Assembly (NCBI GenBank): GCA_950059285.1
Contig: CATLTV010000008.1
Span: 1 to 55,523 of the forward strand
Direction: 5' to 3'
DNA length: 55,523 bases
From: an uncultured Pseudomonadota bacterium
GTDB lineage: Bacteria > Myxococcota_A > Bradymonadia > Bradymonadales > Bradymonadaceae
The notes under the pieces were generated by a model that worked only from the letters and a program-made list of their open reading frames with translations, ran no database searches and had not been told where the DNA came from. Positions 2,462-55,066 of the stretch are shown piece after piece (the stretch's first letter is position 1; every line of letters begins with the position of its first letter). The position numbers and the translations under genes are program-made.

Positions 2462-2646
2462 TGCACCAGTCTCGCTCATGTGTTGGGCACAACAACTTGA
2501 CATGGCTTTTAACTTCGTCATCCCCACAAACATGCGAGGGCTCGCAGGTGAACTCACCTGCGAGCCCTCGCGGGTTTCAAAGGCATTCATCAAAGGATGT
2601 TCGCCTTGTGTGGCGTGGAGCTCAACACATGAGCGAGACTGGTGCA
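2462..2646. repeat. 185-bp nested inverted-repeat element (MITE/REP-like)
   Basis: Outer arms of 24 bp at 2462-2485 and 2623-2646 are perfect reverse complements. They are nearly concentric with a central palindrome at 2534-2571 (18 bp each side, 2 nt apart). The stretches between arms and centre do not pair well. No target-site duplication is evident at the outer edges. It fills the convergent gap between the PRPP synthetase-like gene and the HAD gene, so it may terminate transcription both ways, or be a small non-autonomous palindromic element. Confidence 0.75.
2534..2571. terminator. central 18-bp hairpin, probable bidirectional terminator
   Basis: GCGAGGGCTCGCAGGTGA is followed two bases later by its exact reverse complement. 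It sits about 100 bp from both convergent stop codons. There is no clear T-tract, so termination is inferred from position and stem strength. Confidence 0.55.
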
Positions 2647-24054: not shown

Positions 24055-24116
24055 CAAGAGAGGCGCAAGTCTATCCTTTTTTACGCGTAAAAAAGGATAG
24101 ACTTGCGCCTCTCTTG
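24055..24116. terminator. 62-bp perfect palindrome after valS
   Basis: Thirty-one bases (from CAAGAGAGGCGCAAG to TTTTTTACG) are followed with no spacer by their exact reverse complement; the centre reads TTTACGCGTAAA. As RNA it forms an extremely stable hairpin, 20 bp past the valS stop, so it probably ends or protects the valS mRNA. There is no T-tract beyond it. Confidence 0.75.
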
Positions 24117-28744: not shown

Positions 28745-28829
28745 TGACGACAATGCACCTGACGACAAAAGGGGCGACCTGTTGCGCAGCAACAGGTCGC
28801 CCCTTTTGTCGTCAGGTGCATTGTCGTCA
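28745..28829. terminator. 85-nt hairpin with 41-bp perfect stem between convergent genes
   Basis: Arms 28745-28785 and 28789-28829 are exact reverse complements with the three-base loop GCA. The right arm includes the stop codon of the response-regulator gene (28827-28829), and the left arm begins 8 bp after the stop of the acidic-protein gene. The motif ACCTGACGACA occurs twice in the left arm region. It should end transcription from both directions; no T-tract is needed for such a stem to block or protect RNA. Confidence 0.8.
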
Positions 28830-37469: not shown

Positions 37470-37532
37470 AGCGTAATAAAGAAAGAGTTGTTGGGAAAAG
37501 CTCCTTCTCCATCACGCTCTAATTGACACAAG

Positions 37533-37587
37533 AGATCTGAAAAAAGGCGGCTTTTCCTCACAGGAAAAGCCGCCTTTTTTCAGGTCT
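37533..37587. terminator. hairpin with T-tracts between convergent genes
   Basis: A perfect 19-bp core (37540-37558 and 37562-37580), extended to about 26 bp with one wobble, encloses a CAC loop and has A6/T6 at its edges, so it works as a classical intrinsic terminator in either direction. The right arm reaches the stop codon of the minus-strand gene at 37580. Confidence 0.88.
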
Positions 37588-37888
37588 TTTGTTGACGACC
37601 TCGATCGATGTCAACGAGCCAGCCAAACTGTCCCACCACTTCTTCCATGATGTATTCAAGGACGATGGTGTTGGTGTGGTGAATGAATGCAACAGGGATA
37701 AAATCACGAAGAGCGCCCTGATCAGGGCGCTCTTCTGCGATATGACGTGGAGTCCACTCGACTTCAAGCCCCTCAATGTGGGGCAAGAGCTCCTCCAAAA
37801 AGAGGAGCACGTCGTGATATATGTGTGTGGGTTGACGTCGATCGATCTGAATGCACCATGTGCGTTCAGGATCAATCTTCATCGCCAT
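37580..37888 (-). CDS. small hypothetical protein overlapping the helical-repeat gene
   Basis: A 102-residue protein of unknown family, with a mixed alpha/beta profile (DPERTWCIQIDRR, HDVLLFLEELLPHIEGLEVEW, NTIVLEYIMEEVVGQFGWLV). The chosen frame is coded better than the overlapping antisense/other-frame reading at 37558-37875, which is Ser/Leu-rich and looks spurious. It overlaps the upstream gene's 3' end by 17 bp (stop at 37872); ATG 37888 and 37882 are both usable. The overlap suggests translational coupling and a shared function. Confidence 0.7.
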   Translation of the reverse strand: MAMKIDPERTWCIQIDRRQPTHIYHDVLLFLEELLPHIEGLEVEWTPRHIAEERPDQGALRDFIPVAFIHHTNTIVLEYIMEEVVGQFGWLVDIDRGRQQKT

Positions 37889-40166: not shown

Positions 40167-40230
40167 GCAAAGAGCGCGGGCAGGAGGAGCATATTTTACA
40201 AAATATGCTCCTCCTGCCCGCGCTCTTTGC
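40167..40230. terminator. 64-nt hairpin with 31-bp perfect stem
   Basis: Arms 40167-40197 and 40200-40230 are exact reverse complements separated by the two bases AC. It lies 30 bp past the stop of the upstream plus-strand gene and before another plus-strand gene, so here it separates tandem, not convergent, genes. There is no T-tract. Confidence 0.75.
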
Positions 40231-46468: not shown

Positions 46469-46545
46469 CGACAAAAGCAAGAGGCGCGAGGGGGCGGCAA
46501 TTTACGCAGTAAATTGCCGCCCCCTCGCGCCTCTTGCTTTTGTCG
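46469..46545. terminator. 77-nt hairpin with 37-bp perfect stem between convergent genes
   Basis: Arms 46469-46505 and 46509-46545 are exact reverse complements with a GCA loop and a TTTAC/GTAAA centre. It lies between the kinase stop (46456) and the minus-strand stop (46555), so it serves both transcripts. Confidence 0.82.
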
Positions 46546-51720: not shown

Positions 51721-52863
51721 AGGACTTATCCAGGATGGCATCAGCGCAAGTTTAAGGCGCGCAGTGTGGAAGACATAGTCTTTCCAGTGCGCCTTGACAT
51801 AGGAGAAGTGAGAGAAGGTCTGTTTCTTTCCTCTCCAGCGCGTGTCAAAGTGTTCCCACAGAGCATCCAGCGCGCTTTCGTAGCGCTCTGGATGCTCTTC
51901 TATATAGGACACAAGGGCCTGTGCCACAGGATAATAGGACCAGTGCCAGCGCTCCTCGATGTAGGTATGTTCGCCAAGCATTTCAGGACCAGTAAAGGGT
52001 TGGAAGAATCCATGCGTCAGGGCGTTTTGACTCATCCAGACGTATTCATCATGAAGCTCTCTCTCTTCCATGAACCTGCGAGGGTTCAGGCCATAGAGAT
52101 CAAACTCGGTGCCCCAGTGATGGCGAGATATGCCAGGAGCGCTTGATGCGGTGAGGATCTCACGTTGGCGCTCATCTTTGGTGAGGTGATCGTTCCAGCA
52201 GCGTTGATGTCGAGTATTTTTGGGCTTCCATGAGACGCCAGGTGTAAACCCGCATTTTTCAGCCGCCTGATTGGAGACGAGGTTAAAGGAGCGAGGATGT
52301 TTGAAGTAAAACTTTCTGTACCAGATATAGGCCTGTCCTGCGGCGTCACGGTAGTGTGACTGGCTGAACATGTGCGCGACTTCCTTGCGAAATTGCGAGC
52401 TTTTTTCATATTTTTTGGCGACCTTTTCCATGGTGTGTTTGCTTTGACGATACTTATCGCCATAGTTCAGGATGAGGTCGTTATCGGGGAGGGCTGCATC
52501 GGCAACGAGCTGGCCAAACATACAGTCGCGTTGTGAGATGGCCTCCTGAATCGCTGTTTTGGGCGGTTCCTGTTGTCCAACGAGCCAGGCGTGGAGGTAG
52601 TCGGGATCCTGTGTGGAGAGCTCCCAGATGGCGTCTTTCCACAGCGCCTTGCGCGCGAGTAGCTTCTTCTCATCAAACTTCAGGCAGCCTTCAGTCGTGC
52701 CGAGGTTGTGTTTTGCAAAGATGTGCTCGGCAAGAGCCTCTCCCTTGAGCTGTGGTGCTTCTTCCGTTGGTGTGGTTTCTTTCTGTTCCTGTGCCCACGC
52801 GGGATGAGGCATGAGTGACAGGGCAACGAGAGCGCAGAGCGTCGTGATGTGGTGTTTGGACAT
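51688..52863 (-). CDS. VanY-type D-alanyl-D-alanine carboxypeptidase family protein
   Basis: A signal peptide ending HPAWAQE precedes a 360-residue mature protein. The M15B core is in the second half: SRHHWGTEFDLYGLNP (zinc His and Asp) and ERWHWSYYP (catalytic Glu and third His). The N-terminal 150 residues are an unassigned helical region (NLGTTEGCLKFDEKKLL). It should trim the terminal D-Ala from peptidoglycan stem peptides in the periplasm. ATG 52863 is chosen; the frame extends to 53061 without a signal-like start. The last 33 bp overlap the 3' end of the opposite-strand membrane-protein gene. Confidence 0.88.
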   Translation of the reverse strand: MSKHHITTLCALVALSLMPHPAWAQEQKETTPTEEAPQLKGEALAEHIFAKHNLGTTEGCLKFDEKKLLARKALWKDAIWELSTQDPDYLHAWLVGQQEPPKTAIQEAISQRDCMFGQLVADAALPDNDLILNYGDKYRQSKHTMEKVAKKYEKSSQFRKEVAHMFSQSHYRDAAGQAYIWYRKFYFKHPRSFNLVSNQAAEKCGFTPGVSWKPKNTRHQRCWNDHLTKDERQREILTASSAPGISRHHWGTEFDLYGLNPRRFMEERELHDEYVWMSQNALTHGFFQPFTGPEMLGEHTYIEERWHWSYYPVAQALVSYIEEHPERYESALDALWEHFDTRWRGKKQTFSHFSYVKAHWKDYVFHTARLKLALMPSWISPSSILRIAVIT

Positions 52864-52953
52864 GGGAGTTGCTAGGATGAGAGGACAGGTTGATTGTTGG
52901 CATGTCATAAAACAAGCGCCAGCCATAGTATGCAAAGCATGAGAGGAAGTACA

Positions 52954-53877
52954 ATGAAGATTAGGTCGTTGTGGTTGGTGTGTGGTGTGGTCAGCGCTCT
53001 GATGTGTGTGTGCAAGGTTGATGTTGAGGCCAAGCCCCCCCAGAAGCTCTTTGATGAGCATGAGCAGGGCGCCACGGATGGAGAGGTTGAGCCTACGATC
53101 ACGATTCGTTCAGGACAGGGGAGTGTGAGTGGTTCGACGACGGGCGCGAGCATGGGAAAGAGCATCAAGCCTGTGATTTACAAGCATGGTACGATGAGGC
53201 TCGTGGAGGCCAAGGTTGGAGGTCGTAATGTCTTGTTTTTATTGGATACAGGGGCAAGTTACACCACGCTCACACCATGGTTTGCAAAGCTCATCGGTGC
53301 CACGCCATCAAAGGATGCGCCAAGCGCATCGTTCAAGACCGCCAATGGTGTGCTGGATGCACCCTTTGGCACGGTGTCATCCTTCAAGCTTGGTGGGGTG
53401 GAGCTTGGTCCTGTGACGTTCTCCCTGTGTGAGAGTTGTGGTGAGCAAAACCTGGATGGCTTTGATGACAGCAAGCGCAAGGTCGTGGGTTTGCTTGGTA
53501 TGAATGTGTTGGGCCGCCATGCCGTATCGATGGAGGGGGATCATCTTGAGTTAAGGATCGGGAGTGAGCACCAGAATCAGAGCGCTGATGTGCGTCCCTG
53601 GATCGAGCTTTCCTCGGTGGATGCTGCAGGTCCCGTACAGATGCACGCTGGCAAGACCTTTTCCAAGATCAAGGTCAAGTTGAAGAACAAGAGCAAGCAT
53701 ACGCTCAGGAGCATCACCATGCTCATGTTCTGTCGCACCAATGAGGGCGTGCAGCAACTTGAGTTTACCTTTGATAACTGGAAGGCAGGTTCCACGATTA
53801 CAAAGACAGTGGCGATGAATTCAAAGAGGCCAAGTTGTATTCGCTCAGGCTTTGATGTGCTGGACGCAAGATGGTAG
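52954..53877 (+). CDS. retropepsin-like aspartic protease, exported
   Basis: A signal peptide (MKIRSLWLVCGVVSALMCVC, cleavage near VEA-KP) is followed by a low-complexity stretch and a single aspartic-protease domain, with catalytic VLFLLDTGASYTTLTP at about residue 102 and the later VVGLLGMNVLGRHAVSM flap/hydrophobic-Gly region. It is of the clan AA retropepsin type, active as a dimer. The 90-residue C-terminus (FSKIKVKLKNKSKHTLRSITM) is beta-rich and unassigned. ATG 52954 follows GAGAGG. It is divergent from the VanY-type gene by 90 bp, so they may share a regulatory region. The stop codon lies within the left arm of a 34-bp hairpin. Confidence 0.85.
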   Translation: MKIRSLWLVCGVVSALMCVCKVDVEAKPPQKLFDEHEQGATDGEVEPTITIRSGQGSVSGSTTGASMGKSIKPVIYKHGTMRLVEAKVGGRNVLFLLDTGASYTTLTPWFAKLIGATPSKDAPSASFKTANGVLDAPFGTVSSFKLGGVELGPVTFSLCESCGEQNLDGFDDSKRKVVGLLGMNVLGRHAVSMEGDHLELRIGSEHQNQSADVRPWIELSSVDAAGPVQMHAGKTFSKIKVKLKNKSKHTLRSITMLMFCRTNEGVQQLEFTFDNWKAGSTITKTVAMNSKRPSCIRSGFDVLDARW

Positions 53878-53931
53878 CAGGAGGGGCAGGTTTTACATGT
53901 AAAACCTGCCCCTCCTGCTACCATCTTGCGT
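53864..53931. terminator. 68-bp perfect palindrome between convergent genes
   Basis: The 34 bases from 53864 are followed with no spacer by their exact reverse complement; the centre is TTTTACATGTAAAA. The left arm contains the last coding codons and the TAG stop (53875-53877) of the protease gene; the right arm ends 20 bp before the stop of the cold-shock gene. Confidence 0.82.
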
Positions 53932-53950
53932 TCACTTTTATGTGAGGCGA

Positions 53951-54652
53951 TCAGTCCTCAAAGGGGAGGGCTACGTTGATCGCTTTGGGGTATTTTTTGC
54001 CATCATTGCCGCCGTACTGAAAATCGACAGGAATGATTTCACCAGGCACATAGGAGGGGAGTTTTGAGCGAAGCTCATCGTCTACAATGTTGGCGATATG
54101 GAAGAAGAACTTTTGCTCATCATCATTCTGGATAAAGCCAAATCCCTTATCCGTGAAGTACGCGATAATGCGTCCTTCCATGTCCTCGCCGATCTGAAGT
54201 TCTTCATCAAAATCAGGGCGATCAAGGCGATCGATGGCCTCATCAATGGCGAAGAATTGATAGGTGCAATCCTCGTGGATACGCAGGCCCATGAGTTTGG
54301 TGTGTTGATGACGGCGTTCAAACAGGAAGGCGAGACATGCGCCCATGGCGACGAGTAGACCGCCACCGTCGAGTGTTTCCTGATCGATCTCGATGTAAAG
54401 CGCCTTCATGACGATGCCACGCTTTGACACCTGCGCGAATGTCTCCATCTCGTCGAGGTTATCAAGGCTCTGTGTGATGTGTACGCCGAGGTTAACGTGT
54501 GCGTACACGTGCTCAAAACGTGTAATGGAGAAGTCGAGGCCGTATTGCTTTTCAAAGCGCTCTTCACGCTCTACGCGGCCGCCCGCTCCCTCTATATGAT
54601 TGATAAGTGCTTGAACGAGGCTCGGTTGCGAGGTGTGCTGTCCCTTGTTCAT
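53951..54652 (-). CDS. cold-shock-domain protein with unknown N-terminal domain
   Basis: The C-terminal 75 residues are a cold-shock domain: MEGRIIAYFTDKGFGFIQND is the KGFGFI RNP-1-type motif, and FFFHIANIVDDE is the second nucleic-acid-binding motif; YVPGEIIPVDFQYGGNDGKK closes it. The first 155 residues are an alpha/beta domain I cannot place (HVYAHVNLGVHITQSLD, RGIVMKALYIEID, LLVAMGACLAFLFERR, RIHEDCTYQFFAIDEA). The protein probably binds RNA or ssDNA. ATG 54652 has CAGGAG 9 nt upstream, so the longer frame to 54721 is rejected. The domain pair is unusual. Confidence 0.82.
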   Translation of the reverse strand: MNKGQHTSQPSLVQALINHIEGAGGRVEREERFEKQYGLDFSITRFEHVYAHVNLGVHITQSLDNLDEMETFAQVSKRGIVMKALYIEIDQETLDGGGLLVAMGACLAFLFERRHQHTKLMGLRIHEDCTYQFFAIDEAIDRLDRPDFDEELQIGEDMEGRIIAYFTDKGFGFIQNDDEQKFFFHIANIVDDELRSKLPSYVPGEIIPVDFQYGGNDGKKYPKAINVALPFED

Positions 54653-55066
54653 GATCAAAGGCTCCTGAATATAAATCTTTAGTTTTGAAGTATAATGAAA
54701 TAGTGAGAGACACTTCCCCATCCATCATCATTTTTAAGGAGAAGCAGCTCATGGTGCGCTGATATATCAATATGATCCATAAGTGACATACGAGTCATCT
54801 TACCAGAAAGATCACCTTGCTGATATCTTAGATAAGCATCGGAGTAAAGCTAAGTGGTTTTTAATTGTTACTCCCCGCCTTTCTTACACTACACATCACA
54901 GCTTTTATTGGTCAACTGTGGTTGACAAATAAAACGGCTTGCTCTTAGTCGGGTTGGTGTGGAAGTTTTCGCGATTAGGTTATGTTGTAATGGTACAGTT
55001 GTGACCTGCTTGATGTCATCCAGGATCGTGTTTCAAATCTCAAATCAACCAAGGCTTACGTTACTC
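54653..55066. other. divergent intergenic region with an AT-rich operator-like palindrome
   Basis: A 414-bp gap between divergent genes. A 14-bp inverted repeat with one mismatch (54903-54916 and 54921-54934, TTTTATTGGTCAAC/GTTGACAAATAAAA, four-base centre TGTG) may be an operator. TTGACA (54922-54927) lies inside it but has no clear -10 at the right distance. No gene is seen. Confidence 0.5.
54903..54934. promoter_or_regulatory. candidate operator palindrome
   Basis: A 14-bp inverted repeat around TGTG with one mismatched pair (54910/54927). Its right arm overlaps a TTGACA hexamer. It is the only strong dyad in the region between the divergent cold-shock and membrane-protein genes. Confidence 0.45.

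Follow-up and report, generated by a model that had tools for sequence, protein, structure and literature searches.

An aspartic protease gene in the 55,523-nt stretch of DNA analysed here (the window) ends inside a long perfect palindrome, which raises the question of how the last codons of a gene come to be mirrored base for base beyond its stop codon, and whether the structure is better regarded as a transcription terminator or as an inverted duplication. The palindrome is as the earlier note described it, a 68-bp sequence with no spacer whose arms are exact reverse complements across an apex of TACATGTA (Table 1). The last 14 nt of the open reading frame at 52894-53877(+), including its TAG stop codon (ACGCAAGATGGTAG), lie in the left arm, as that note also claimed, and the outer part of the right arm (53918-53931) is the exact reverse complement of this gene end. 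RNA from 53850-53950 folds at -70.2 kcal/mol (z = -11.9) and the 68-mer as DNA at -41.6 kcal/mol (z = -16.3). The 68-bp sequence occurs once in its own genome; neither the locus nor the shared palindrome cores described below were matched in plasmid and viral collections, and no Rfam family matched the window above its gathering score.

Table 1. Features of the window discussed in the text, with positions counted from its first nucleotide.
Feature	Position	Strand	Description and basis
Protease gene	52894..53877	+	Retropepsin-like aspartyl protease; Asp_protease_2, PF13650, E 1.6e-17; start codon uncertain
Palindrome at protease gene end	53864..53931	.	Perfect, 34+34 bp, spacer 0; direct sequence analysis, fold energies
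Same palindrome, extended	53861..53934	.	37+37, through one G.T position; direct sequence analysis
Coding part of left arm	53864..53877	+	Last 14 nt of protease gene (..A R W stop); putative source arm; C-terminus conserved in relatives
Mirror of protease gene end	53918..53931	-	Putatively derived arm; absent in all relatives checked
Convergent gene	53951..54721	-	C-terminal cold-shock-like domain, PF00313; start uncertain (54658 or 54721)
Palindrome	24055..24116	.	31+31, loop 0; after valyl-tRNA synthetase gene
Palindrome	28745..28829	.	41+41, loop 3 (GCA); convergent junction; holds stop codon of minus-strand gene
Palindrome	37528..37592	.	31+31 with 2 mismatches; convergent junction
Palindrome	40167..40230	.	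31+31, loop 2; codirectional junction
Palindrome	46469..46545	.	37+37, loop 3 (GCA); convergent junction
Shorter palindrome	2534..2571	.	18+18; convergent junction

Which arm came first can be approached, as the earlier note proposed, through the 3' end of the protease gene in related genomes. Whole-match identity to homologues in family relatives is just 32-43%, yet their last residues align with the ..DARW* found here (DATW*, SVRW*, EGRW*, AGRW*, SPTW*, EGFWR*, EGYWR* and AEWGR*), the coding arm thus being conserved as ..RW* or ..TW*; neither the mirror arm nor any long palindrome is present at this position in any of the family relatives checked, and a general collection of genome contigs yielded no relatives of the protease. 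The convergent neighbour, whose match to the cold-shock domain (26.8 bits) is just below the Pfam cut-off of 27 and whose stop codon sits 19 nt beyond the right arm, is kept beside the protease in four of these genomes (G002, G014, G016 and G018), where the two stop codons are separated by 14, 2, 16 and 15 nt respectively, as against 73 nt here. The conserved C-terminus, the missing mirror and the shorter gaps together point to a coding arm that is ancestral and a mirror arm that was gained in this lineage, in a comparison with relatives that are of family level at the closest. We note that the cold-shock-like protein ends ..LPFED* and is missing the C-terminal tail of about five residues that the four syntenic relatives carry (LPEDHQTNGR*, for example); the junction looks as though it had been rebuilt.

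The palindrome is not a peculiarity of the protease gene. The same kind of structure stands at most well-spaced convergent gene ends, beside unrelated genes, and that note had overlooked six more such palindromes and one short one in the window, nearly all at gene ends, and hundreds in the genome. A 17-bp near-palindrome with one mismatch at 51860-51898 lies inside coding sequence and is unlike this gene-end class. A sample of 1,255,523 bases (1.26 Mb) in 61 pieces from this genome of 6.65 Mb contains 205 palindromes with a score of at least 20 and 170 with at least 25, and dinucleotide-shuffled copies of the sample contain none with an arm or score of at least 13, so that chance is excluded; scaled by proportion, the whole genome would hold about 1,100. 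The arms of the 205 are up to 41 bp long (median 32 bp), a similar stem length recurring throughout the genome; the loops are mostly of 0-4 nt, and 187 palindromes are free of mismatches, there being 23 mismatches in 6,347 bp of arm.

Their placement follows the ends of genes. With gene calls from a simple hexamer model made for this analysis, which leaves the counts per junction approximate, palindromes are found at 74 of the 98 convergent junctions with a gap of at least 40 nt (76%), at 99 of 443 codirectional junctions (22%) and at 10 of 134 divergent ones (7%). Most often a palindrome starts 0-25 nt beyond a stop codon, none is within 10 nt of a gene start, and only five of the 205 are inside coding sequence. 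Overlap into a coding sequence extends up to about 20 nt and once to 33 nt, the deepest case being the palindrome at L192 11648-11723. Some of the overlapped C-termini are lysine- or serine-rich and resemble the generic outer arm, so the palindrome may have supplied those gene ends rather than copied them.

Since the genome is a draft of 441 contigs, fold-back chimeras introduced during assembly or library preparation have to be considered. Sixteen of 40 contig starts lie in sequence resembling a palindrome core, against a background of 5%, and the remnant of an Illumina adapter (CTACACGACGCTCTTCCGATCT) stands at the start of one contig (L199, G000:C28, 1-22). A fold-back read, however, would mirror its flank too and would not join a different gene, whereas these palindromes run on without a break to a distinct gene on each side and have flanks that differ from one side to the other; almost all are intergenic and specific to 3' ends, they have composition and apex motifs in common, and contig breaks are the expected effect of real long palindromes on short-read assembly. 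We regard an artefact as extremely improbable. Because many contigs begin in a palindrome-like core, the assembly probably breaks at long palindromes, which makes their count too low. An assembler k-mer limit was also considered as the cause of the 85-nt ceiling on length, and was set aside as palindromes with zero and with odd loops reach similar maximum lengths.

The class is absent from the sampled family relatives and, among the genomes searched, is restricted to this one. Sequence amounting to about 0.70 Mb, drawn from every one of the 20 other genomes of the same family and from some of the same order and class, has no palindrome above score 18, and only ordinary terminators with stems of 13-18 bp are seen in it; loci of diverse bacteria, about 0.98 Mb in total, contain two palindromes of at least 20 and none of at least 25. 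A covariance model, R1, built from 18 palindromes with that at 53864-53931 left out of training, recovers the latter with an E value of 3.4e-14 and, in searches of 57 genomes of the class and 235 of the phylum, matched this genome alone, with limited candidates scored per genome. The nearest named lineages, as judged by valyl-tRNA synthetase, are a Lujinxingiaceae MAG (62% identity) and a Myxococcales MAG (61%), which places this bacterium in the Myxococcota as a Bradymonadaceae-like member. No description of a bacterial genome carrying gene-end palindromes like these was found in the open-licence literature, an absence that is not proof.

The base composition of the arms suggests a function. 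Averaged over the 150 palindromes with arms of at least 28 bp, the left arm runs from the apex outwards through about 7 AT-rich positions and about 9 G-rich ones and is then A-rich to its end, the G-rich core lying 8-16 nt from the AT apex, and the outer right arm is T-rich; the longest run of T in the 3' arm is at least four in 135 of 200 palindromes, compared to 63 of 200 after shuffling. Such a composition is that of a bidirectional intrinsic terminator whose A- and T-tracts have been drawn into the stem. The class as a whole resembles bidirectional Rho-independent terminators in its position soon after stop codons at gene 3' ends, its enrichment at convergent junctions, its short loop, and its G+C-rich core preceded by an A-rich left side and followed by a T-rich right side, but differs from them in having a stem of about 64 nt in total (median arm 32 bp), a spacer that is often zero and almost no mismatches, with the A- and T-tracts buried in the stem. 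Hairpin-length medians from Term-seq are 20-35 nt, and the criteria of TransTermHP limit the stem-loop to 59 nt (PMC12207403).

The palindrome at the protease gene is a less typical member. A consensus terminator scan calls no terminator at 53864-53931, and its 3' side (..GCTACCATCTTGCGTTCACTTTTATG) lacks a clean U-tract immediately after the hairpin, having only a TTTT 5-8 nt past the palindrome, and what follows the core has been copied from coding sequence; we count both the missing U-tract and the missing call against the explanation that we prefer. The earlier note had contrasted an inverted duplication with a terminator, and its duplication finds support in the derived mirror arm at this locus; the contrast itself does not survive, since the class has a terminator-like design. 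A better reading is that the two go together, these being palindromic terminators with arms seemingly copied from each other.

The apices are far from random. Among about 45 three-base loops, 36 are C(GCA)G, C(GAA)G or their complements, and 25 of the 54 zero-loop centres are GCTAGC or ACATGT. C(GNA)G loops form unusually stable DNA hairpins, and codirectional palindromes display no preference of the sense strand for GNA loops such as a signal at the RNA level would produce. A structural or protein-binding role in DNA unrelated to termination, such as a cruciform or a nucleoid or segregation site, would be in keeping with loops of 0-4 nt and perfect arms, which favour cruciform extrusion, and with the DNA fold energy of the 68-mer given above. 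However, the palindromes are placed according to gene 3' ends and T-tract composition, and not to spacing or a conserved binding sequence, and we consider such a role very unlikely.

Comparison among the palindromes is informative as to how the arms evolve. They fall into families with a common inner core and outer arms that are unrelated between loci and yet perfectly mirrored at each; the core GGGGCGGCCATTTGAC..GTCAAATGGCCGCCCC, for example, is found with several different outer arms. Cores are shared by a part of the palindromes, most of which are without long similarity to each other, and the repeated cores and apex motifs imply that many have shared ancestry or are under strong selection, rather than each having arisen from a random flank. 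Near-identical whole copies, such as the pairs C23:4524/8571 and C4:23624/24681, vary mainly by symmetric pairs of changes (e.g. CGTTG..CAACG versus CATTG..CAATG). Across core-sharing pairs the outer arms differ by 736 symmetric and 8 one-sided changes, a count that is partly circular because every member is itself a palindrome, and the evidential weight is therefore placed on the near-identical copies. Directly outside the arms, complementarity drops to 22-30%, which is background; the edges are thus sharp, and we reject the idea that these are the remains of longer, decayed palindromes that reached past the present arms.

Similar copies also lie close together, with 7 found within 5 kb where 0.47 are expected (p about 2e-4) and with unrelated flanks where tested. 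Three related palindromes are present in 3.3 kb at L179 (13763-13817, 16277-16353 and 16916-16984), one of them with a symmetric insertion in both arms when compared with the other two. Inner cores common to unrelated loci, near-identical units a few kb apart with unrelated flanks and the net lengthening of the protease/cold-shock junction could all be accounted for by a dispersed palindromic element, REP- or MITE-like, that spreads among gene ends and brings its own mirror symmetry with it. REP/RAYT palindromes (PMC2817692) are likewise numerous, extragenic, near gene ends and alike in part of their cores; in contrast, the stems here are much longer and form no uniform repeat family. Transposition by RAYT/Y1 enzymes is not supported, as the 95%-complete genome has no match to the Y1/RAYT transposase (PF01797), which is found in 17 of 21 family genomes searched. 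Moreover, target-site duplications are not above shifted controls, units with the same core differ in outer arms that are each perfectly mirrored, most palindromes lack long similarity, and at 53864-53931 the outer left arm consists of conserved coding sequence of the host. We judge a mobile palindrome, the second rival to arm copying, improbable.

The main rival is pure selection, whereby very stable bidirectional terminators or 3' hairpins would be built and maintained by point mutation and compensatory change. The terminator-like placement and composition fit this, the non-random apices are as expected from selection for stable loops, and terminators of Bacillus cereus have been documented to evolve by compensation (PMC5381666). 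Ordinary terminators, however, do so in two quick steps with G.U intermediates (PMC5381666), and such intermediates are almost absent from the palindromes here, as are mismatched states generally in the 6,347 bp of arm. Also against selection alone are the sharp arm edges and the 14 nt of conserved coding sequence mirrored at 53864-53931 with no U-tract produced, and stems of 13-18 bp suffice in genomes of the same family. Codirectional palindromes are perfect in 96% of cases and convergent ones in 85%; because the former, with only one direction to terminate, are just as perfect, we prefer arm copying to a need for bidirectionality, and consider selection alone to be unlikely. Taking the identical cores with different mirrored outer arms, the sharp edges and the clustering of similar copies together, we favour arm-to-arm copying acting on bidirectional intrinsic terminators.

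We therefore propose, as a reading that we place slightly on the probable side, that this class of hyper-elongated symmetric gene-end hairpins serves as bidirectional intrinsic terminators or as 3'-end protectors, with arms lengthened and kept perfect by fold-back copying. Transcribed from either side, such a palindrome would give one and the same hairpin of about 32 bp; its core would be G+C-rich, and its lower stem would be formed by pairing of the A-rich and T-rich tracts that an ordinary bidirectional terminator has. At the DNA level, a nascent strand would fold at the core hairpin, copy one flank as its reverse complement onto the other side, and then return to its template, and such fold-back (template-switch) synthesis would both lengthen the stem and keep its arms perfect; at 53864-53931 the final 14 nt of the protease gene would have been part of the copied flank.

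Precedents for such copying exist. In Escherichia coli, template switching makes imperfect palindromes perfect (PMC7202029). A role for it in the origin and upkeep of RNA hairpins has also been proposed, in which stable loops prime the fold-back synthesis (PMC8794818). The features attributed to template-switch or quasipalindrome correction (the Ripley model; PMC7202029, PMC8794818), namely inverted copies of flanks, homogenised arms, sharp boundaries and symmetric multi-base changes, are all seen here, as is, in the family-level comparison at the protease locus, one arm that appears ancestral and another that is its reverse-complement copy. Whereas such events are known as sporadic hotspots or isolated cases, here they would shape hundreds of gene ends. 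Another parallel is presented by the palindromes of Nematomorpha mitochondria (PMC6649704), which are also numerous, long, mismatch-free, confined to one lineage and in some instances cover conserved coding sequence, and for which arm conversion has been proposed (PMC6649704); these lie inside mitochondrial genes, and those described here at bacterial gene ends with terminator-like composition.

What might have set off such a process in one genome was sought among its genes. Loss of Rho would force reliance on strong intrinsic terminators and loss of SbcD would confer tolerance of palindromes, and losses of RNase III or of exonuclease VII were considered as well; none of the four losses is supported as a simple cause, as Rho, SbcD, RNase III and the ExoVII subunit XseA are all encoded. 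The presence of SbcD and XseA, the expected suppressors of long palindromes or template switching, counts against our proposal. It is possible, if short of probable, that in this lineage an active and self-reinforcing process copies flank onto flank, and occasionally whole palindromes to nearby gene ends, such that most well-spaced convergent ends become perfect palindromes of about 65-75 bp in spite of SbcD, ExoVII and RNase III.

If this last reading is correct, terminators would evolve by arm copying and not by point compensation. RNA stems might originate and keep their pairing through slow compensatory mutation or through single template-switch events, and about a thousand near-flawless stems at defined positions, absent from relatives, make this open question testable by comparison of strains. 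These palindromes extend terminator-like architecture beyond the length limits of standard prediction, and raise the question of how a cell encoding SbcD tolerates them. Long palindromes would also explain breaks in this assembly, and contigs that start at position 1 inside a palindrome-like core include L027, L178, L186, L188, L203 and L209.
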